Shown here: in pieces, positions 1 to 11,088 of the stretch | Layout of the letters: each line of letters opens with the position of its first letter | Position numbering within the stretch: the stretch's first letter is position 1 | Assembly (NCBI GenBank): GCA_016198645.1 | Contig: JACQIE010000042.1 | Location: 1 to 11,088 of the forward strand | Length of the DNA stretch: 11,088 nt | Direction of reading: 5' to 3' | Source of the DNA: Candidatus Aenigmatarchaeota archaeon | GTDB lineage: Archaea; Aenigmatarchaeota; Aenigmatarchaeia; GW2011-AR5 | The notes under the pieces: generated by a model | Database searches by the model: none | Told to the model about the DNA's origin: nothing | The model's input: only the letters and a program-made list of their open reading frames with translations | Program-made: the position numbers and the translations under genes

Positions 1-997
1 ATACAGAAGAATCTGAAGCGTTAGACTTGATTTCCAAAATAATGTTTTTTGGCAGCATGACATCCGGTATGGTTCTGTTGGGTAAAATCACGTGGAATCG
101 TGGGCATTTGAACAAGTTTTTAACGATTCGCATGATAAACATCTCCCATCTTTTTCCAAGATCGTTCCCGAGTGCATCTTTGTTCGGAACTATACCCGCT
201 GCGATTACAGCATTATTCCACGACCCGAATAATCTTGTAGCGGCCATTTTTAAATCAAGTTTTCCCATTGCCTCCGTTTCGGTCCTTGTTGGCATTCTCC
301 CGAACATGGCGTGAAGATCTTTTATTTCATTTATTACTGTTTCTTCGGACCATTTGTTCATTTCGGCTACTAACTCTAAATCCGCCGACGTCAAAAATTC
401 GTTATAAGTAGCGAAATATACGAATAGCGCATTTAACAAGTCATGTCTTCCAAGGCGCCTTAACTCATTCATAGAAGGAGTATGACCTATCTTTTTCGCG
501 ATTGCCCGTACATCTTCTAATACAACAGCCCTAGACCAATCATACCGTTTATGCGGGGTTACCCCACTTGCAATTAACGCAGAAGACCAGTTGCCAAATC
601 TTCTTTCCGCCGCTCTCGTTAATCCATAGCCCATCTGCGCAATAGCATCATCTCTTGTTGGGGATTTGCCTAATTTTTTAGAAAGAAGCCGTATTTCGGA
701 AATAATTTCATCTTTTTTCATATGTTTTGTCATAGGGCTGAGTCCACAGTAATAACACGAATTTCGCCAGCTTCCAAACAGTTTCACAGCTTCATAGAGT
801 AAGTCATTTCTGCCATGCATGCGCAAATAATTATAGTTTAGTGCATTCCTATTTCTAGATACCAACCACTTTACATGAGTGGCAAACTCTTGCTTAGTTC
901 GTATTCTGGAACGTCGCATATAACTACTGGACATATATAATTTCTTAAAATCGTCTATCTTTATCGCGCCGCTTCCTATAACCAGAACTTTCTTCAT
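1..997 (-). CDS. carB 5' end fused in frame to a homing-endonuclease-like ORF (partial)
   Basis: This frame is open from an ATG at 997 to the left edge: 332 codons, no stop seen. Residues 1-14 (MKKVLVIGSGAIKI) are the conserved CarB start; CarB should continue with a GQAGEFDYSG-like stretch, but here D-D-F-K-K follows. Residues about 34-88, 95-147, 154-205 and 216-270 form four imperfect copies of a helical unit (pattern LGKSPTR...RRFGNWSSALIASG, FGRMPTR...RLFGSWNNAVIAAG), matching my memory of the homing endonuclease associated repeat (HNH_repeat, PF18780). From about residue 280 a tail carries IPD(312)-x9-E322-I-K324, the PD-(D/E)XK nuclease signature. The ATG overlaps the carA stop as ATGA, with GAGGAT upstream as a possible ribosome-binding site, so it should be co-translated with carA. 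Base composition after codon 14 is AT-rich, unlike carA. Most likely an intron-encoded homing endonuclease extending the 5' exon. M22 (934) or M27 (919) could be independent starts. A decayed fusion or an assembly join is possible. Confidence 0.75.
   Translation of the reverse strand, partial: MKKVLVIGSGAIKIDDFKKLYMSSSYMRRSRIRTKQEFATHVKWLVSRNRNALNYNYLRMHGRNDLLYEAVKLFGSWRNSCYYCGLSPMTKHMKKDEIISEIRLLSKKLGKSPTRDDAIAQMGYGLTRAAERRFGNWSSALIASGVTPHKRYDWSRAVVLEDVRAIAKKIGHTPSMNELRRLGRHDLLNALFVYFATYNEFLTSADLELVAEMNKWSEETVINEIKDLHAMFGRMPTRTETEAMGKLDLKMAATRLFGSWNNAVIAAGIVPNKDALGNDLGKRWEMFIMRIVKNLFKCPRFHVILPNRTIPDVMLPKNIILEIKSNASDSSV
956..997 (-). other. carB: carB first 14 codons (interrupted 5' exon)
   Basis: These 14 codons encode MKKVLVIGSGAIKI, the start of the large subunit of carbamoyl-phosphate synthase. 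That subunit makes carbamoyl phosphate from bicarbonate, ATP and the ammonia supplied by CarA. The position directly after carA with a 4-base ATGA overlap is the expected carAB arrangement. Similarity to CarB ends abruptly after Ile14, inside the highly conserved GSGPIKIGQ region of the first ATP-grasp half. The remainder of carB (roughly 1050 further codons in the family) is not in the window and would lie to the left of position 1 if the gene is interrupted rather than lost. Confidence 0.7.
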
Positions 998-2010
998 GGC
1001 AGCATCCTCGCAAATTTGTCAAAGAGAAATGAAGTGTCCTGCGGGCCGGGCGCCGCTTCGGGATGGAACTGCACGGCGAATATGGGCAGCGTTTTATGCT
1101 CGAAACCCTCTATCGTGCCGTCGTTCATGTCAATCATCGTCGCCTCTGCATTCTCCGGCACGCCGCGCAATGCGAAACCGTGATTCTGCGACGTCATATA
1201 GCACCTTTTCGTCTTCGTGTCCATGCACGGATGATTCTGCCCGCGGTGCCCGAATTTGAGTTTGTATGTATTTGCGCCCAATGCTGCGCCAAGAAGTTGG
1301 ATGCCCAGGCATATGCCGAACATAGGCAGCCTGTATTCCAGAAGATTCTGCAGTGTGTCCACGACGTAGCGGGTGCTCTGCGGGTCTCCGGGGCCGTTGG
1401 ACACGACCAGCCCGCTCGGATTAAGCGCCATTATATCGCTTGCGCTGGACGTAGCAGGCACCACAATGACGCGCAAATTCCGCTGTACAAGCGAACGGAT
1501 TATGTTCATCTTCACGCCGCAATCTATGAGCGCCACGGTCTTTCCCGCCCCGAATTCTTTTATTTTCTGCGTGGTCACCATCGAAACGAGGTCGTCCTTG
1601 TTGGGATTGTACATCTCGCGCACGTCAGGCGCGTTGAATATCCCCCCGAGCATCGCCCCGCGGGTGCGTAGTATCTTAGCGAGCATGCGTGTGTCTATTC
1701 CCGATATTCCCGGAACGCGGTGCTCTTTGAGAAATGCGTCAATCGTCTTGCTCGCTTCAGTGTAATGCTCGCTTACCACGTACCCCCGTGCGTGAATCAG
1801 CGGAGATTCTTCGTCTTCCTTTCTGACGCCGTAATTGCCTATCAGCGGATAAGTCTGGCAGAGTATCTGCCCTTTATACGACGGGTCGGTAAGCGATTCA
1901 GTATACCCCGTCATGCCCGTGTTGAAAACGACCTCACCGCTCGTTTCCCCGTCGAAGCCGAAAGAAACGCCCCTGAAGACGGTCCCGTCTTCAAGAACCA
2001 GGTATTTCAT
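994..2010 (-). CDS. carA: Carbamoyl-phosphate synthase small (glutaminase) subunit
   Basis: CarA hydrolyses glutamine and channels ammonia to CarB for carbamoyl phosphate, the precursor of pyrimidines and arginine, in the cytoplasm. From the ATG at 2010 the protein is 338 residues and starts MKYLVLEDGTVFRG, the standard CarA beginning. An N-terminal CPSase_sm_chain domain (about 1-130, with VVFNTGMTGYTESLTDPSY) precedes a class I glutamine amidotransferase domain. That domain shows GPGDP near 207, the nucleophile elbow GICLGIQLL with Cys234, and the His316/Glu318 pair in FHPEAAPGP. The frame extends 16 codons upstream to 2058, but those residues do not resemble CarA, so I chose the internal Met. 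Its TGA overlaps the ATG of the carB-start frame as ATGA, implying translational coupling. The domain set is complete, so this copy looks functional even though the downstream carB appears interrupted. GC content is high, in contrast to the next frame. Confidence 0.96.
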   Translation of the reverse strand: MKYLVLEDGTVFRGVSFGFDGETSGEVVFNTGMTGYTESLTDPSYKGQILCQTYPLIGNYGVRKEDEESPLIHARGYVVSEHYTEASKTIDAFLKEHRVPGISGIDTRMLAKILRTRGAMLGGIFNAPDVREMYNPNKDDLVSMVTTQKIKEFGAGKTVALIDCGVKMNIIRSLVQRNLRVIVVPATSSASDIMALNPSGLVVSNGPGDPQSTRYVVDTLQNLLEYRLPMFGICLGIQLLGAALGANTYKLKFGHRGQNHPCMDTKTKRCYMTSQNHGFALRGVPENAEATMIDMNDGTIEGFEHKTLPIFAVQFHPEAAPGPQDTSFLFDKFARMLP

Positions 2011-2611: not shown

Positions 2612-5213
2612 CCACAATCTTCCTCATTCTCTTAAGCATGGCCTCATCCGGCTCTTTCTCGTAGATTCCCTGCGCTATCGCGCCTTCGCCGCCGCCTCTG
2701 CCGCCGCAAAGCTTGGCTGCCTCGGCGAAAAGCTTTGCGGCTTCGTTTTTAGTCGAAGTCACCACGATGCTGCGGTCTTTGCTTCCGAATAATATATACG
2801 TCCCGCCCGCCTTTGTAACGGCAAGCAGCTCCGCCCGCGAAAGCGGCATCACGGCAACGTGCTCGCCGCGCAGCGATTCTACGGTTGCCAGCGCGCTTTT
2901 TTCCCGCTCCTTTTTCAGTTTTTTCCACTCATTGAAAAGCCGCTCAGCGCCTTCTACGACGTTGGTCGTGCCGAGTATTTTTTCCGTTTCTTTCAGCAGC
3001 GCACTCATTCCCGCATGGTATTCTTCTGCGGCTCTTCCGGCCGCGAGCGTGAGCCTGACTATGCCGTCCTGTATCTTTTCAGTCCCGGTTATTATTATCT
3101 CGCCCACGTCTGCCGTATTTTCGACGTGCGTGCCGCCGCATGCTTCCACGTCCACGTCCTCCATGTCGATTATCCGCAGCTCTTTCGCCGGCACTGCCGG
3201 GCCCTGATATATTGTCATGCCGTATTTTTTCTCGGCGTCCGTACGCTCTATGACGCGCTTGGAGACGTGCACACGTCTCGTCACGGCTTCATTCGCTCTC
3301 CGTTCTATCTCTTTCAGCTCGTCGTCAGTAAGCGTCTTGTAGTGCGTCAAGTCTATGTGAGCCTTGTCCGGCGTTTTTAATGTTCCAGCCTGCCAGACAT
3401 GGCTTCCAAGCGTCTTTCGTGCCACTCCGTTCACTATGTGTATCGCGCTGTGGTGTGCCATGAGGCGCTTCCTTCTCTCATCGTCGACTGTTCCTTTCAC
3501 CGTGTCGCCCGCTTTGAACGGGACGTTCCCGATTTTGTGCCCTATAATGCCGGCGAATTTCTGGACGTCCGTTACTCTGGCGCCGTTTATTGTTCCCGTG
3601 TCGTTCTGCTGCCCGCCCCCTTCCGGATAGAACAGCGTCTTGTCGAGTATTATCCAGCCGTCTTTAATCGCCAGAACTTTCGCAGCAAACGTGCGGGCGT
3701 TCCCGTCTTTGTAATACAGCATCTCGGTTGCCGGCGCATTCACGTCCAGCGCCTTCGCCTCTTTTTTCGCCGCATGCCTGTGGCGCTCGGCGACCATGGG
3801 ATAGAAATTATCCGGTATCTCCACTTCAGGCTTTTCTTTCTTCACGGTTTCCGGGGTTATGCCATGGCTGTCATAGAGCTCTATCAGTTTCTCCGTGCCC
3901 ACATTTTTCAGCTTCGCTATTATTTCGCGGCTCTTTTTTTCCGTCGCCCCGTATTTTTCCTGCTCGTACGCCACTATTTCCGGCACGGCCTTTAATGAGT
4001 TTTTGAGTTCCGGGTACATTGGTGCGAGATATGATGCATGCATCTCAATCAATTTGGCAAAGTCTACTTCCCATCCGTGCCTTCTTGCGAGCGAGAATGC
4101 CCTCCTTAATATCAACCGCAGGTTGTAGCCGCCGCCGACGTTGCTCGGCAGCGTCCCATCATTCAGCGCGAAAAGCAGCGCTCTCGTATGCTCGGCTATT
4201 GAATATATGGCCGCCAGCGGAAGTATGCGCTCTTTCAGCGCCGCAGCGTCGTACGACGTCTTCTTCGCCACGGTGTTCCACGCCTTTGCCACGTCCTGCA
4301 CTTCATCCATGTTCAGCAGAGAGGCGTAAGGCAGAAACTCTTTCACGGCCTTTTCATCCGTCTTCACGTCCGATTTCTTTTTCAGATATTTCAGCACCGT
4401 GGGAAAGGTCGTCTCGTAGCTCGTGGATGCGCCCCGCGAGAACCACGCGTTTCTTTCCTGCCCCAGCCCCATGTCCAAGACTTTTAATGGCAGGTCTTCG
4501 TAGCCGCCGGGTGTTTGGCGGAACTGCATATATACCTGATTGGCCAGCTCAAGCCCGCGGGAAAAGAACTCAACACACGGCCCGAAGTTGCCGGAGCCCG
4601 CCCAGACGTCTTCATGCAGGACTATTTCTTCCATTGGTATGCCCATGCCTTCGGTGAACCATTTCAGCAGATGCAGAAAATAATCGCCGGCTTTGTAGTC
4701 TGCCGGCGTTTCAAAACGGTGCTGCCCTATCATGACGAAACACGTGTAGTGCGCGCCTGTTATCCCGACGTTTTCTATGTCGTTGAAGCGCAGGCACGGC
4801 TGCGGCACGACCAGCGGGTTGGCCGGCGGCTTCACTTCGCCTGAAACCACGTAAGGAATGAAGTCGTCTATCGATGCCTCGACGAAGTGCAGGTCATTGC
4901 GCCACCGCGCGCTTACAGGGTAACGGTTTATCGGCGTGTAGCCCTGCTTTTTCAATAGCACAGAAAAATTCTTCCACACGTCCGGATAGCTCATCGCATT
5001 CTTCGCCGGCGTGGCGCCGATGAACGAGTAGCCGCCGCAGCACGCAGAGTCGCCGCACACGCTTCGCGGCAGCGTCGACCAAAAGGCGCGGTTACACGAT
5101 GCGCACTTCTTGCGCGAGAAGCCCGTCTCTTTCATTGACGACGGATAATACTTCGTCGGATTTTTCGCGAACTCCGAGACGAATTTCTTTTTCAGTTCCT
5201 TGTCGGTGAGCAT
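2604..5213 (-). CDS. alaS: Alanyl-tRNA synthetase, archaeal type
   Basis: AlaRS charges tRNA-Ala with alanine in the cytoplasm and hydrolyses mischarged Ser/Gly-tRNA-Ala. From the ATG at 5213 the protein has 869 residues, close to the usual archaeal length of about 900. An N-terminal cysteine cluster (C37, C40, C53, C58, C59) marks the archaeal form. The class II core follows, with motif 2 around LRFNDIENVG (141-150) and ETP at 168-170, and motif 3 near GGGYNLRLILRRA (360-372). The second half holds the editing domain, with metal-binding H588-x3-H592 and C692-GGT-H696. A C-terminal domain has the DHHA1-like glycine-rich CGGRGGGEGAIAQG (836-849). The frame extends three codons upstream to a GTG, but those bases (GTGAT, four bases before the ATG) read better as the ribosome-binding site, so I place the start at 5213. 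No key residue is missing. The 3' end overlaps a small ORF, and the 5' end faces the giant subtilase gene across 100 bases. Confidence 0.97.
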   Translation of the reverse strand: MLTDKELKKKFVSEFAKNPTKYYPSSMKETGFSRKKCASCNRAFWSTLPRSVCGDSACCGGYSFIGATPAKNAMSYPDVWKNFSVLLKKQGYTPINRYPVSARWRNDLHFVEASIDDFIPYVVSGEVKPPANPLVVPQPCLRFNDIENVGITGAHYTCFVMIGQHRFETPADYKAGDYFLHLLKWFTEGMGIPMEEIVLHEDVWAGSGNFGPCVEFFSRGLELANQVYMQFRQTPGGYEDLPLKVLDMGLGQERNAWFSRGASTSYETTFPTVLKYLKKKSDVKTDEKAVKEFLPYASLLNMDEVQDVAKAWNTVAKKTSYDAAALKERILPLAAIYSIAEHTRALLFALNDGTLPSNVGGGYNLRLILRRAFSLARRHGWEVDFAKLIEMHASYLAPMYPELKNSLKAVPEIVAYEQEKYGATEKKSREIIAKLKNVGTEKLIELYDSHGITPETVKKEKPEVEIPDNFYPMVAERHRHAAKKEAKALDVNAPATEMLYYKDGNARTFAAKVLAIKDGWIILDKTLFYPEGGGQQNDTGTINGARVTDVQKFAGIIGHKIGNVPFKAGDTVKGTVDDERRKRLMAHHSAIHIVNGVARKTLGSHVWQAGTLKTPDKAHIDLTHYKTLTDDELKEIERRANEAVTRRVHVSKRVIERTDAEKKYGMTIYQGPAVPAKELRIIDMEDVDVEACGGTHVENTADVGEIIITGTEKIQDGIVRLTLAAGRAAEEYHAGMSALLKETEKILGTTNVVEGAERLFNEWKKLKKEREKSALATVESLRGEHVAVMPLSRAELLAVTKAGGTYILFGSKDRSIVVTSTKNEAAKLFAEAAKLCGGRGGGEGAIAQGIYEKEPDEAMLKRMRKIVDG

Positions 5214-5243
5214 ATATATCACGTAAACATTGCATTCTCATGC

Positions 5244-5267
5244 AAGTTTTTATCCGCATAAAAGCTT
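5244..5267. promoter_or_regulatory. Near-palindromic divergent promoter between alaS and the subtilase gene
   Basis: The 100-base gap holds AAGTTTTTAT, a 4-base spacer (CCGC), then ATAAAAGCTT: inverted arms matching at 9 of 10 positions. Each arm contains a TATA-like element, one facing each gene. The rightward box (about 5247-5253) is roughly 60 bases before the ATG at 5314, and the leftward box (about 5258-5264) roughly 45 before the alaS ATG at 5213. Both distances allow a start point some 25 bases downstream of the box and a short leader. The symmetry could equally be an operator for a dimeric regulator. Function is inferred from the layout. Confidence 0.4.
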
Positions 5268-5313
5268 TCATATTGTTAATTCAACAAGGCATACGAACCG
5301 TGTGGTAAGGGCA

Positions 5314-8300
5314 ATGGGGTCGGGCGGGCAATACGGTTTAGGCGTTTCATTGCATACCCCAACGAATGTGCGTTTTCATGCGAAATACGGCAAAATCCTT
5401 TCTCTATCCCTAATAATATTAATCGGATTGTTCTCGGCGTTTTACGTGGCAAGCCCAGAGCCAGACGTGCCGTTGCGCGAGAAAAATATAAGTGATACGC
5501 TGCCAGCGATGGGGCAAAACGAGCAAGTATCAGAACAGCCCAATCCTGCTGCGCAGCAGAATGAGCAGCCCGGCCAGCACACAGTAGAGAATTATGCGCC
5601 ATCTTCTGGTAGTGGGGGAGGCGGCGGTGGCGGCAAAATCGACAGCTCGTTACAGCAGATAATAGAAGAAAAGCCCGAGCAGACGACTGAAGTAATTCTT
5701 CATGTTGCCGAAGGGCAGAGCTTGAGCGACGTGTCATCCCAGATAACAAAAGCCGGCGGCTCAATTTCGGGCGTATACGCAATCGGTAATATTATAACAG
5801 CGCGTGTCCCGAACAACAGGATAGAATATGTCGTTTCAAATGCTTCTGTGTCCAACGCCTGGCCGGAGAGGCAGGTGCAGGTTCTGTCAGACGGCGGGGC
5901 GCAGATGAATGTTCAGTCTGTGTGGTCTGCGGGATATAACGGCAGCGGAGTAAAAATAGCCGTTTTGGATACAGGCATAGATTCCAGCCACGAGATTCTC
6001 AAAGGCAGGGTCTTGCTGGAAAAAGACTTCACAGGGAAGAACAGCCCGAAGGATGTTTTTGGGCATGGAACTCACGTGGCCGGTATCATAGCAGGCAACG
6101 GGAACGTTACCGGAATCGCCCGTGGCGCATTGCTTTTTAACGCGAAAGTGCTGGATGACAGCGGCTTGGGCAGCGACATAGACGTCATCCGCGCCATCAA
6201 CTGGGCGGTGGACCCGGATAGCAACGACGAAACAGACGATGGCGCGGATATCATAAGCATGAGTCTGGGCGGTCTTTATACGGACCCGTTCGGGCCGATA
6301 AGCATGGCTCTCAAAGCTGCGACAGAACGCGGCGTAATAGCTGTTGCAGCTGCCGGTAATTGCGGGCCGTGCGGAAGCTGCGGCGGATTCAAGGGAGTCA
6401 CTACACCGGGCGCAAGCCCTTATGCAATTACAGTGGGTGCCGTGGATGAGAACGGCCAGCACGCCTGCTTTTCAAGCGGGCAGTCCATCGGTGGGGTGGG
6501 AGTGAAGCCGGACGTGGCTGCGCCCGGGAAGAACATCTTGTCTTCCGTGCCTGGCGGTTATGCAACAAAGTCCGGAACCTCAATGGCTACTCCGCACATC
6601 TCCGGTGCGATTGCATTGCTTCTGCAGATGCAGCCGGGATTAAATCAAAGCGACGTAAAGCAGTTTCTTGAGAGCCTTTCCAAAGAGTCGGGAGTCCCGG
6701 GAAAAGATATTCAATACGGTTCCGGCCTGCTGGATATGGGACGGGTGCCGTACATGATGGTGATGCCGGAACCCGCGGTGCTGGAATATTCCAACGCGTC
6801 TGCCGGATTCAGGATATGGAATTTCGCCGGCAGAAACCTGACGATAAAAAATATTATATGCGAGAACTGCACGACGAACTTCACAGGCGAGATTGCCGTG
6901 GAGAATTCCAATGCCGCATCGTTTACTCTTAACGTCGGCGAGTTCCAGTCAAATCTTCCGGTGCACGTGGAGACGGATGTAACGAATGTTACGATTGTGG
7001 TGACGAAGCTTTTCGAAACCGTGCCTGAAATGGCGTACGGCTTTGTCAATGCGTCGTCGTTTGAAATTGGCGCGTTCACCCCGAATATTTCTTTATTATC
7101 CTTGGGCAAGGTCTACTGCGATTGGGCGGATAACGGCGGAAACAGCTTATGCTCGTATTACGGCGTGTGGAAGAATCTTGCATCCAGAAAACCGGAATTG
7201 GGCATGAACCCCGGGCAGGAATATAACAAATTTGGGGACATGAAGTCGGGAGACAAAGGCGGCATGTACGAGGAAGAAGACTCATTTTCGACAGTGGGGC
7301 TTGATGTCAGGATTGCGGACTTGTCAACACTGGACGTGAGCTATGCCGCCGGAGCCATGGATTATAATGCCGGATTCGGCGGTTGCGGCGTGTTGGAGCC
7401 GGGAAACTGCGACGTACCAAACATCAAAGTGGTATGTGACGGCACAGGCATCGTTGACAAGGACCCGTGCACGCTTGCCGTCTATCCATGGTGCAACAAT
7501 ATGCAGGAAACTACGACCTGCGTGCTGAAGAAGAACAGCGCCTACAAGGTGCAAGCCACAGGCTTAATATATACAAAAGACGCAAACAAGAATCTTATTG
7601 CCGTCACACATCCTGTTTCGTGGGCATTGAATATCGCGTGCACCAAAGACAGCGATTGCGGCGGCACAGGGAAATGCAAAATCACAACAGACAGCAGGTC
7701 AACGTTCTGCTCGTTCACGGACGAATGCACTGCCGGAGCCACGGAATGCACGAGCGCCACAAAGAAGCGGACATGCGGCGACTTTGACGGCAATGGCTAC
7801 ACGGAATGGGGTTCGCCTGCAACGTGCTCTCCTGTCGCGGCGTGTCACCCTGACACTTGCGTAAGCTCGCTGAAGAACTGCCCGACATGCAACCTGAACG
7901 CAGGATACAATTATATAAAATGGGTCGGGTCGCCAGCCTCCAGCGATGCGGCGTTCAAGAGCATCAAAGACAAATTACAGGAAACCCTTTACATAGGAGC
8001 GGATGATAAATGGCAGTCAAATCCGGCTGCCGTGGTTACAGGCGGCATTTACACGCTGAAATTGTCCGGTAGCGGGACTCTGACGTACGAATACTGCGGC
8101 GACAGCATATGCAACAACGGCGAGATGATGGATTCCTGTCCATCAGACTGCGGCAAGAAGCACAGCTACGGCAAATTCCCTTCCGGATGGAGCGCTGACA
8201 TAAGCTCCTTCGACCCGCAAATATACTATGGGAAGGATTACAGCTTGAAAATAAGCTACAAATGCAGCGCTGACGGCTACGTGTACTTCCCGCTTGATTT

Positions 8301-11088
8301 GAATAATACAGGGAATAGCGTGAAGTTTACCTGCGGGGACCCGGCTCACGACGTGGGATGCCAGAATGAGGTGTTGGTGAAAAGTTATTTCACCGGTTCC
8401 GATTGTAATACCGTAGTCAAGGAAAGAACGCTGACGTTCAAGATTCCTTCGGGCAGCAGCCCCGGGCCGCACAATTTGCAGGTTGGCTTCTGGCACGGCT
8501 ACGACCAGAGCGGCAAGCCTAAAATAGACGGCAGCGACGGCGGATATAACAGTGCGTCCGGTGCCAAAACGGTTACTGTAAGCGAGTGGAAATGCACCTC
8601 CAATGCGCAATGCACGCCGGAAGAGTTCTGCGGTTCAGAAGGCACGTGCAAAAAGGACGTATGCGCGCCGCAGGGCCAGAACTATTGCGACAGCAACAAC
8701 GTCTATTCCTGCAGCAGCGACGGCTCCAGCAAATCGCTGACGAAAACCTGCAGCAGCGACGAAGCCTGCCAAAGCGCAGCGTGCGTGAAAAAAGTAGTCT
8801 GCGGCAACAGCATCTGCGAATCGGGCGAGAATTACCTTAACTGTGCCAGCGACTGCCCGTCGCCTTGCAATGACTATTGCGTAAGCGACACGCGCTATTT
8901 CGGCGGCACATGGAGCGGCGGCAAGTGCAGCTATTCTTCCGGGCTGTGCACGTACGGATGCTTCAACGGCAAGTGCCTTTCCGCAACGCAATTCCCGTTC
9001 ACGATGTCAATGGAAGCCGCCCAGGGCGTGCCTGTTTACAAGCAGCCAGGCGACTACATAACATTCACGTTCAATTCTAAGAGCGCCCAGACCATAGACT
9101 TCTCACCGCCCTCGGCGTTCGATTACATTTCCGGCCCGTATTCCGCCGGCAAAGCGAATCTCGCGGCAGGCGCAACGAGCGTGACATTCCAGATAGGCGA
9201 GAACGCAAATGGCAATTATCCGGTATCAGCCGGCAATGCCTATACAAAGTCGGTGTTGTGGATGACCGTTACGGACGAACCGGCTTTTCTGATTGTGACA
9301 AACAGGAACGCATTATTGCAACGATTCGACGATAGCGACAAGGAGAAGGTCAGCGCCGTAGTACAGGAAGCATACTCGCTGGCAGGCAAGTCCACCGGCA
9401 AAGGCGTGGTATACGACCTCGCGGATTACAAGATGGGCGCGAGACCGTGGGCGAGCTTTGGCGAATATAAAGAAAAGCCGCTGGAGCCCGAGAAGAAGGA
9501 CAACGCCTACGCGAGCAATGTCGCCGCGTTTGTGCAGAAGAAATGCAAATCCTGCAAAAGCGTTATAATTCTAGGCGACGATTTCGTCGTGCCTATGTAC
9601 AGGGTAGATTACAGGATGTTTACGGGGTGGGAGATACCCATTCTCAACGCGTGGATTGGCAATAATCCGCAAACGAAAAACATCTACAGCGATTTCACCT
9701 ACGTTCCGAGAGACGTGAAGCCGATAGGGGATTTGAATACGATTTTCGAAGGCATCAACCAGAACAAAGGCGAAAAGGTAATCATAATAAAGCCTGACGG
9801 CAAAAGCTATTCCGAGCTGAGCAAACTCAAAGCCGTTCTTGCGTCCGAGTTTTCAATCAAGGATTCCAACATCGTGGAATACGAGTCCAAGAGCGTGGCG
9901 TGCAACGAATACGGAAAACTGAAAGGCCATACGCTGATTCTGATAGGCGACAGAAGCAGCAACAACGCGATAAAATGCGTGCCGTGGTTCGATGCCGGCA
10001 AGAAGCCCGGCGATACGTTCAAAGCGTCGATAACGCTTGAGCGCAACGTGTGGAGCGCAAAAGCCGATTACGCCGTGGTGCTTTCAGGCGATGAGCACAG
10101 CGCAATAGCAACGCTCACGGACTTTCTCGAGAATCCCGGTTATTATACGAATAACTTCATGAAAACCGCCCAAACTGCTTACATCCACGACTTCTCAAAG
10201 CCGCAAAATATGATAACCGGCACCGACTATCTGCAGGGATTTGTTTTAGGGCTATGCGAGCATGTCGGCGACTCCTTCATTGAGCAGAGTCCGTGCATAG
10301 CCAGCGACGTTACGGTGTCGTTCCTGCCGGGCATAGGCGCTGTAACAGACCTTAGGGACTTCGCTATCTACTGCGCTTCGGGATTTGTTTTCGACGGCGA
10401 CGGCATGGACAAGATACTGTGCGGCGTCTCTGGCGCCGGAACAGCGACAAGCATAGGGACTGTGTTGTTGGCTCCCACGGTGGTAGGTGCTGCCGTATCC
10501 GAGACTGGCGACGTGGCACTGGCAACCACCAAAGGGATATTAAAATCGTTGAAAGCCGCGATGAAATCCGCCCCGGCTTTCGAGAAAATTGCCAAGACGC
10601 TGAAATTAACCGATGCAGGCAGCATAAAGAAGTTCTTCCAGCTCGGCTCGGGAGAAGGCGTGGAAGCCGCCCAGAAAAGGTTCAAGAACATACTAACCGG
10701 CCCTTACAGGAAGTTTGCACTCAATGCGCTGGGAGAGCTGGACGAAGCTGCACTGAAAAACGGCATAAAGAACGCGGACGATTTGGAGAATGCGGTGAGG
10801 GGAAGCGAAAGAATTCTAGGCTCGTCACACGAGGGTCTTAAAGCATTGCCATTTTCGCAACTGGATAATGTGAAATTCCTGAAAAGTGTCGGGGAAGCCG
10901 AGAAGGCGTTTGAGATTTCTGAAAAAGGATTAAAGGGAATTAAATTCGTCGATGAAATAGAAGATGTCCCAAACGCTCTCGCAAAGTTCGATCCGAATAA
11001 CCAGATAATATCTATATCGAAGAGTACATTAAATGAACTAAAGGATGCAGGCCCGAATTTCCTGAATCGGTATGCAATATTCCACGAG
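5314..11088 (+). CDS. Giant exported subtilisin-like protease with Cys-rich modules and toxin-like C-terminus (partial)
   Basis: One frame stays open for 1925 codons to the right edge. Domains seen: cytoplasmic N-tail 1-27; hydrophobic anchor or signal about 28-45; Pro/Gln-rich linker with seven glycines at 101-107; I9-like propeptide about 125-190; peptidase S8 domain about 195-470 with catalytic D219 (AVLDTG), H251 (GHGTH), N349 (AAGN) and S423 (GTSMATPH), all present. Beta-rich stretches with N-glycosylation-type sites follow (about 488-720), then cysteine-rich modules (about 720-1210), a beta domain (about 1215-1320), and an alpha/beta region about 1326-1605 (LIVTNRNALL, VIILGDDFVVPMYR, HTLILIGD) like S-layer-associated or gingipain-fold proteins. 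Residues about 1640-1740 carry FLPGIGAVTDLRD and Gly/Ala-rich hydrophobic helices typical of polymorphic-toxin pre-toxin regions; the tail ends in IFHE. Likely a cell-surface or secreted protease acting outside the cell. A GTG at 5368 would give a shorter signal peptide. Protease call secure; C-terminal assignment tentative. Confidence 0.9.
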   Translation, partial: MGSGGQYGLGVSLHTPTNVRFHAKYGKILSLSLIILIGLFSAFYVASPEPDVPLREKNISDTLPAMGQNEQVSEQPNPAAQQNEQPGQHTVENYAPSSGSGGGGGGGKIDSSLQQIIEEKPEQTTEVILHVAEGQSLSDVSSQITKAGGSISGVYAIGNIITARVPNNRIEYVVSNASVSNAWPERQVQVLSDGGAQMNVQSVWSAGYNGSGVKIAVLDTGIDSSHEILKGRVLLEKDFTGKNSPKDVFGHGTHVAGIIAGNGNVTGIARGALLFNAKVLDDSGLGSDIDVIRAINWAVDPDSNDETDDGADIISMSLGGLYTDPFGPISMALKAATERGVIAVAAAGNCGPCGSCGGFKGVTTPGASPYAITVGAVDENGQHACFSSGQSIGGVGVKPDVAAPGKNILSSVPGGYATKSGTSMATPHISGAIALLLQMQPGLNQSDVKQFLESLSKESGVPGKDIQYGSGLLDMGRVPYMMVMPEPAVLEYSNASAGFRIWNFAGRNLTIKNIICENCTTNFTGEIAVENSNAASFTLNVGEFQSNLPVHVETDVTNVTIVVTKLFETVPEMAYGFVNASSFEIGAFTPNISLLSLGKVYCDWADNGGNSLCSYYGVWKNLASRKPELGMNPGQEYNKFGDMKSGDKGGMYEEEDSFSTVGLDVRIADLSTLDVSYAAGAMDYNAGFGGCGVLEPGNCDVPNIKVVCDGTGIVDKDPCTLAVYPWCNNMQETTTCVLKKNSAYKVQATGLIYTKDANKNLIAVTHPVSWALNIACTKDSDCGGTGKCKITTDSRSTFCSFTDECTAGATECTSATKKRTCGDFDGNGYTEWGSPATCSPVAACHPDTCVSSLKNCPTCNLNAGYNYIKWVGSPASSDAAFKSIKDKLQETLYIGADDKWQSNPAAVVTGGIYTLKLSGSGTLTYEYCGDSICNNGEMMDSCPSDCGKKHSYGKFPSGWSADISSFDPQIYYGKDYSLKISYKCSADGYVYFPLDLNNTGNSVKFTCGDPAHDVGCQNEVLVKSYFTGSDCNTVVKERTLTFKIPSGSSPGPHNLQVGFWHGYDQSGKPKIDGSDGGYNSASGAKTVTVSEWKCTSNAQCTPEEFCGSEGTCKKDVCAPQGQNYCDSNNVYSCSSDGSSKSLTKTCSSDEACQSAACVKKVVCGNSICESGENYLNCASDCPSPCNDYCVSDTRYFGGTWSGGKCSYSSGLCTYGCFNGKCLSATQFPFTMSMEAAQGVPVYKQPGDYITFTFNSKSAQTIDFSPPSAFDYISGPYSAGKANLAAGATSVTFQIGENANGNYPVSAGNAYTKSVLWMTVTDEPAFLIVTNRNALLQRFDDSDKEKVSAVVQEAYSLAGKSTGKGVVYDLADYKMGARPWASFGEYKEKPLEPEKKDNAYASNVAAFVQKKCKSCKSVIILGDDFVVPMYRVDYRMFTGWEIPILNAWIGNNPQTKNIYSDFTYVPRDVKPIGDLNTIFEGINQNKGEKVIIIKPDGKSYSELSKLKAVLASEFSIKDSNIVEYESKSVACNEYGKLKGHTLILIGDRSSNNAIKCVPWFDAGKKPGDTFKASITLERNVWSAKADYAVVLSGDEHSAIATLTDFLENPGYYTNNFMKTAQTAYIHDFSKPQNMITGTDYLQGFVLGLCEHVGDSFIEQSPCIASDVTVSFLPGIGAVTDLRDFAIYCASGFVFDGDGMDKILCGVSGAGTATSIGTVLLAPTVVGAAVSETGDVALATTKGILKSLKAAMKSAPAFEKIAKTLKLTDAGSIKKFFQLGSGEGVEAAQKRFKNILTGPYRKFALNALGELDEAALKNGIKNADDLENAVRGSERILGSSHEGLKALPFSQLDNVKFLKSVGEAEKAFEISEKGLKGIKFVDEIEDVPNALAKFDPNNQIISISKSTLNELKDAGPNFLNRYAIFHE
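8095..8154 (+). repeat. Cys-rich CGxSIC module, copy 1
   Basis: Residues 928-947 of the giant protease read CGDSICNNGE...CPSDCG, with five cysteines. This is the short disulfide-rich module (CGDGxCxxGE...C..DC) often repeated in archaeal and bacterial surface proteins. A second copy lies at 8800-8856 in the same protein. It supports an extracellular, disulfide-stabilised location. Confidence 0.7.
8800..8856 (+). repeat. Cys-rich CGxSIC module, copy 2
   Basis: Residues 1163-1181 read CGNSICESGE...CASDC and match the first copy at 8095-8154 in cysteine spacing and in the CGxSICxxGE core. Between the copies lie further cysteine-rich stretches, such as C1094-TSNAQC...GTC, related in style to C776-TKDSDC...GKC further upstream. 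Confidence 0.7.

Follow-up and report, generated by a model that had tools for sequence, protein, structure and literature searches.

The window analysed here comprises all 11,088 nucleotides of contig C9 from genome G000 (655 kb in 96 contigs, 70% complete), and its position 1 is the first base of that contig. On the minus strand, carA occupies positions 994..2010; a start at 2010 is preferred over the GTG at 2058 from the lengths of homologues, and the nearest named relatives of the gene belong to Candidatus Aenigmarchaeota/Aenigmatarchaeota. A further carA relative, P0014, has 84% identity and is found on JGI contigs of up to 9.9 kb. Directly after carA, sharing an ATGA overlap with the carA stop, an ATG at 997 opens a minus-strand reading frame of 332 codons (2-997) that reaches the contig end without a stop. 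Its translation begins MKKVLVIGSGAIKI-DDFKKLYMSSS..., and its first 14 codons (956..997, minus strand) resemble the carB start of all nine relatives compared. This carB stub, which continues in frame into an endonuclease ORF, ends (GAIKI) beside the position, referred to below as site A, at which related carB genes carry an intron. On the plus strand, an ORF of 1953 codons (5230-11088) is open at the contig end; by eye, it starts like a subtilisin-like protease and has Cys-rich parts.

The rest of the minus-strand frame (2..955) is a homing-endonuclease-like gene whose C-terminal end is missing at the contig end. It contains an HNH_repeat array (PF18780) of three stretches (Pfam E 1.2e-33), the best-scoring of which spans residues 217-269 (191..349, minus strand), and a P-D...E-x-K motif at residues 311-324 (26..67, minus strand), a candidate PD-(D/E)xK nuclease centre. 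There are 11 further homologues at E <= 1e-3, with lengths of 342-483 aa. Among 12 aligned endonuclease proteins P311, D312, E322 and K324 are invariant, and the motif, PD..EIK in the window ORF, is present in 12 of 12. An AlphaFold2 model of the relative P0002 (mean pLDDT 78, pTM 0.36) gave no Foldseek match at E 0.001 or better; its weak matches are headed by Bax1-XPB chains (E 4e-3), with Ecl18kI, EcoT38I and PA endonuclease lower, all of which we take to be PD-(D/E)xK nucleases. The G+C content is 40% in the endonuclease part of the ORF and 53% in the remainder of the contig. By its domain and candidate catalytic motif the product is a homing-endonuclease-like protein, for which cleavage and homing are predicted; what bears on site-specific cleavage and homing is limited to the scatter of the carB inserts on a tree and their linkage to such genes, both described below.

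These results bear out part of the original prediction. It had proposed a carB start with an ATGA overlap directly after carA, as the similarity of the 14-codon fragment to the carB starts of nine relatives confirms, and an in-frame, stop-free switch into a repeat-containing nuclease-like protein, as the HNH_repeat array and the P-D..E-x-K motif indicate. An intein at the junction, which it had considered improbable for lack of a starting Cys, Ser or Ala, is rejected because the residue that follows the stub is Asp.

The carB gene of the same genome

The TIGR01369 profile has a single match in G000, on contig C6 (C6:152-3241), with a TGA inside it. This carB has its own ATG at 149, preceded by AGGTGATC, presumably an archaeal Shine-Dalgarno sequence, and a stop that ends at 3283. 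After GSGA, in the same codon block in which the C9 stub breaks off, the gene is interrupted by an insert of 21 nt (C6:189-209) with an in-frame TGA; the order is MRIKKVLLLGSGA, the insert and then, once this is excised, IKIGEAGEFDYSG.... The insert obeys the archaeal bulge-helix-bulge (BHB) rule, and its excision restores GSGAIKIGEAGEFDYSG. Beyond it the frame is open for 1023 codons, with 71% identity to same-genus carB. Upstream lies the end of a glycosyltransferase-4-like fragment (E 6e-4, under the Pfam cut-off), not carA; this fragment (C6:3-155) ends at the carB start and is apparently shortened. C9:1 and C6:1 are both contig ends, between which no overlap was found, and the two could face each other.

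The endonuclease ORF had originally been read as the content of one large carB intron, in which case the C9 stub would be spliced to the carB body on C6. The stub does continue into the ORF in frame and breaks off at the right codon, and contig ends lie where the two halves would meet. However, carB on C6 possesses a start of its own as well as a complete small intron of 21 nt, and the stub forms no inner helix with the 3' site on C6 (0 pairs, versus 5 for the 5' site of C6 itself). In the relatives, moreover, the endonuclease has a gene to itself upstream of carB, and it is inside carB that the introns, of 17-36 nt, are located. Rfam covariance models find only a tRNA in the window and C6, with no match to a group I/II or other intron in the sequence on either side of the gap between the two contigs; they have no match in the loci of six relatives, shared N-terminal leader included. 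A large intron is thus barely credible. BHB, which had been named as an intron class worth testing, is the form of the C6 insert, and the intact carB elsewhere that would have spoken against the prediction exists only in part: carB is present, on C6, but carries a mini-intron. What was seen at the window is confirmed, although a large intron that simply splits carB is not the explanation.

The 96 contigs, the position of the relevant features near contig ends and the lack of carA on C6 raise the question of an assembly or binning artefact, whether a chimeric junction between stub and endonuclease, a chimeric C6 insert or a C6 contig from another organism. Such an error is most improbable, since a tree of 63 carB proteins places the C6 copy as sister to those of the two same-genus genomes (SH-aLRT 99), the G+C content agrees, and stubs, endonucleases and inserts of these kinds are found again in other genomes.

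Short inserts in carB and their geometry

A scan of GTDB contigs with the endonuclease alignment (A1) gave four loci, L036 to L039. In L036, L038 and L039 the endonuclease gene lies between carA and carB, and in L037 it follows carA on a contig that stops before any carB. The carB genes of L036 and L038 are doubly broken, at site A after GSGA and at site B after the GE of KIGEAGEFDYSG; that of L039 is uninterrupted and diverged at the site (SIGQGGEF). In 371 genomes from the phylum of G156, the L036 genome, carB was found at E 1e-50 in 62. Its 5' end was read in 60, of which 14 are interrupted and 46 uninterrupted; G173 and G445 have a carB without the 5' end. Together with G000 and G158 (L038), the 14 form a set of 16 genomes with 21 inserts of 17-36 nt, 7 at site A and 14 at site B, where the G438 insert is displaced by one nucleotide. 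For the phylum of the window itself, 59 genomes yielded ten carB genes over the cut-off, of which the G000 copy is the only interrupted one.

For each insert, all excisions that restore the protein motif were listed (1 to 7 each), which builds restoration of the reading frame and conserved residues into the test. An excision then counted as BHB if it had a central helix of 4 nt with the three inner pairs formed, bulges of 3 nt cut 2/1, and 3 pairs or more in the inner stem, where one bulge or mismatch was tolerated. The test was not blind, because the pattern had been seen in the first inserts before it was written. For every one of the 21 inserts, one protein-restoring excision, and no more than one, is of BHB form. 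In shuffled inserts the true excision fits in 0.4% on average; with the cuts moved by 1 to 3 nt, the number that fit is no higher than 2 of 21, and it is 0 in nearly all displacements. RNAfold predicts a hairpin in 21/21 inserts, and in 19 it also gives the central helix together with a 5' bulge of 3 nt. An exon Gly codon contributes its third base to a pair with the intron, which is either C-G or T-A (3 and 4 cases at site A; 11 and 2 at site B, G438 left out). Since an outer exon helix of at least 2 pairs, the canonical hBHBh' form, is found in only 5/21 inserts and the outermost central pair is mismatched in 8/21 (G.A in seven), most inserts have a relaxed BHB form. A scan for the motif without the protein criterion yielded, among the matches listed, candidates in most loci that are apparently due to chance, and it failed to recover some of the known introns; the BHB motif alone therefore cannot find introns.

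The splicing endonuclease (PF01974) has one match in each of 14 of the 16 interrupted genomes and was not found in G000, which is 70% complete, or in G441, which may be incomplete. A single match per genome may point to the enzyme type that is strict in other archaea, as the alpha2 enzyme of Haloferax is described to be (PMC7714728), which would count against the splicing of relaxed motifs.

Lengths that are not multiples of three are found in 12 of the 21 inserts, and all of the other 9 contain an in-frame stop (product of shuffled expectations, 6e-5); a stop in the frame of exon 1 is present in 20/21. Reading of UGA as an amino acid in carB is not supported, because carA itself ends in TGA and the 12 inserts shift the frame. 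The stops, together with further stops in the G401 carB, would fit genes in which the inserts are kept, carB being a pseudogene or having its translation begin further downstream, with the loss of the first ~25-30 residues. However, the long open frame of the C6 carB and its identity to same-genus carB, a BHB geometry in 21/21 inserts that is unexpected in a decaying gene, and the retention of the short exon between sites A and B wherever both inserts occur make this very unlikely. Hairpins and stops in inserts next to a homing endonuclease are also features of translational bypass in T4 (PMC5009743), and here too, as in T4 gene 60 or yeast mitochondria, ribosomes might hop over the inserts with no RNA splicing. 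Matched codons are described as not strictly required in mitochondrial bypass (PMC5009743). Yet the take-off and landing codons match in 0/21 inserts, and the 4-nt helix, 3-nt bulges and 2^1 geometry are a requirement of the splicing endonuclease, not of bypass, which renders hopping highly improbable. That the carB inserts are BHB introns is strongly supported by their sequences, and we infer that they are spliced.

Association of endonuclease genes with the inserts

Two unrelated endonuclease families occupy the same place directly upstream of interrupted carB genes. One is the HNH_repeat/PD-(D/E)xK-like family (L036, L038, L117, L118, L105); the other consists of LAGLIDADG_3 genes (L086, L088, L090, L091, L092, L093, L119), which exceed the Pfam cut-off in 7 of 7 cases. 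An N-terminal leader (TGHWTS..., MNNKQKSNK or LRAHAELPN...) is common to members of both (L048/L117, L091, L093, L036, L092). Some endonuclease genes look damaged, with stops within the matched stretch in G389 (2 TAG), G159 (1 TAA), and G500, G366 and G401 (one each). A truncated carB start just before the endonuclease is found not only in the window but in L088 (ending GVLKI), L092 (GSGS) and P0005 (GALKI), and all four stubs end at or adjoining site A. The endonuclease homologues P0005, P0006, P0008, P0009 and P0010 each carry a copy of the carB start at their end.

An endonuclease lies directly upstream in 12/16 interrupted loci versus 1/57 uninterrupted ones (L039; P 1.2e-9), a comparison that counts one genome twice among the 57 and includes three loci, L036, L038 and L039, to which the endonuclease itself had led. 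Restricted to the carB-selected sample, with G156 left out, the figures are 10/13 and 0/46 (P 4.6e-9). The upstream-gene profiles were built from these same endonucleases, and distant ones could be missed. No complete endonuclease gene precedes the interrupted carB in L087, where carA is directly before carB, in L089, or in L094, which has a relic match (E 0.009); at L034, the C6 locus, the contig ends. On the tree of 63 carB proteins the insert label requires 12 changes, at least 8 of them forced by strong branches; with shuffled labels the mean is 14.3, and 42 of 500 shuffles need no more than 12. The inserts are thus scattered on the carB tree and at most weakly clustered.

The inserts without an endonuclease gene, and the endonuclease without an insert in L039, would be accommodated if the inserts were spliced BHB introns but the endonucleases hitch-hiked upstream of carB with their target elsewhere, so that immunity would not be the role of the introns. 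This is unlikely, given the linkage in the carB-selected sample, the two unrelated families at the same place, the stubs that end at the insert site and the occurrence of the same pairing of endonuclease and insert in a second gene, cysS.

A search with the LAGLIDADG alignment, which had matches in 71/371 genomes at E 1e-12, led to endonuclease genes upstream of cysS, a gene whose profile matches 356 of the 371 genomes. At least six cysS genes are interrupted at TCGPT/VYDY (L130, L131, L134, L139, L151, L156). In all but the last of these there is a single protein-restoring excision, of BHB form and 28-32 nt long, which brings the BHB-fitting inserts of carB and cysS together to 26; in L156 the script found no BHB excision, and a manual fit requires a Pro to be taken as Leu. 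Five of the six have a LAGLIDADG endonuclease ORF upstream, and for L151 none was found in the stretch read. At L163 (G498), where an endonuclease is near cysS, there is no anchor, and the cysS profile match begins at position 1.

A proposed mobile module and its relation to known systems

What the DNA shows directly is the carB stub and its ORF, the inserts with their BHB geometry, and a linkage between endonuclease genes and inserts. The reading that probably accounts for these features is that a free-standing homing endonuclease is paired with tiny BHB introns, which break its target in carB and are spliced by the tRNA endonuclease. The window would then hold one half of a mobile module, the endonuclease gene upstream of carB. 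The endonuclease would target a conserved block of codons in the 5' part of carB (GSG-A-L-KIGEAGE-FDYSG), and the linked carB copy would be protected because one or two BHB introns (sites A and B) interrupt the target DNA. Removal of the introns from the mRNA by the host tRNA-splicing endonuclease and an RNA ligase would allow carB still to work. By homing, the endonuclease gene and the introns would be copied together into an intronless carB. In the window, the incoming DNA would have joined the broken carB of the recipient at the cut, leaving the 14-codon stub fused to the ORF. The stub would thus represent the left end of a double-strand break at the target, the right side having been repaired from the donor, and it is best read as a remnant of the old carB start.

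With somewhat less assurance, and still as the better bet, we propose a class of such modules in DPANN archaea. These would comprise free-standing homing endonucleases of at least two unrelated families and BHB introns of 17-36 nt that serve as immunity inserts, spliced by the host tRNA endonuclease, within conserved blocks of codons in several essential protein genes (carB at two sites, cysS at one). Such an arrangement gives a plausible reason for the origin and spread of the inserts, since the nuclease target is shielded at little cost to the gene.

Introns within archaeal coding sequences are almost unknown. Splicing of a BHB intron in coding sequence has been demonstrated by cDNA for the cbf5 pre-mRNA of Crenarchaeota (PMC2738675, PMC7714728). 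Unconfirmed predictions in other archaeal genes are also mentioned (PMC2738675), and a 2020 study describes a case in a 5' UTR and names cbf5 as the one further reported mRNA case (PMC7714728). Like the cbf5 intron, the inserts described here have BHB form and interrupt a conserved codon block of an archaeal protein gene, with the predicted cuts falling between bulge nucleotides two and three. However, the cbf5 case concerns one gene in Crenarchaeota, with no linked endonuclease gene described in the cited portions, whereas the present inserts affect carB and cysS, mostly in DPANN genomes, are 17-36 nt long and endonuclease-linked, and have predicted splicing. Endonucleases are also associated with the BHB introns of archaeal rRNA genes (PMC4496867, PMC6125680); there, in the sections cited, the endonuclease is encoded inside the intron, whereas here it lies outside an intron too short to encode anything.

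Two phage systems offer parallels. In T4 gene 60, an insert beside a homing endonuclease gene is suggested to shield against cleavage and is bypassed in translation (PMC5009743). T4 mobA/gene 60 thus shares with the present loci a free-standing homing endonuclease beside a gene with a short non-coding, possibly protective insert (PMC5009743, PMC2988022). The T4 insert, of 50 nt, is bypassed by the ribosome, whereas the inserts here, without matching bypass codons, fit RNA splicing. In collaborative homing, a free-standing endonuclease is aimed at the site of an intron without an endonuclease of its own (PMC2988022). The group I case resembles the present one in combining an ORF-less intron with a separate endonuclease at the same conserved site; however, as far as the cited text goes, it is described for phage introns, whereas the introns here are of BHB type and need a host protein enzyme.

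In the open-access papers searched, where absence is not proof, we found no report of archaeal BHB introns in carbamoyl phosphate synthetase genes, and none of a module that combines a homing endonuclease with BHB splicing in archaeal mRNA. On an mRNA intron and the splicing endonuclease in DPANN, the accessible portions of the open literature gave one paper, on circular RNAs of IS elements. If true, the proposal describes a new way for introns to spread in archaeal mRNA and an RNA-splicing counterpart of the T4 bypass insert. It would connect selfish DNA with the machinery that splices tRNA, and it would open the question of where archaeal introns come from to testing. Tiny mRNA introns of archaea would on this view owe their existence to selfish DNA, and some DPANN genes that look frameshifted would in fact be intact. 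Genes with such inserts will be truncated or split by gene callers.

Related endonucleases also lie beside other genes, named here by eye: no clear intron was seen by eye in topA, ribB, YchF-like GTPase, mcm or sufS-like genes next to them. HNH_repeat-type endonuclease genes are found between mcm-like and OB-fold-like genes in L051, L052 and L054. In G145 a related endonuclease gene (L041:1414-2469 and beyond) overlaps the start of the sufS-like gene, the first part of which looks AT-rich and has no intron visible by eye; protection there may come from recoding instead. One or more extra genes are present between carA and carB in L036, L039, L048, L049, L050, L089, L093 and L119, and by eye these are NUDIX, MazG-like or glycerophosphodiester phosphodiesterase-like. 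Finally, in L152 (G505:C36:39900-41334), a LAGLIDADG-type match lies ~250 nt after a match to the splicing-endonuclease gene, on the same strand.
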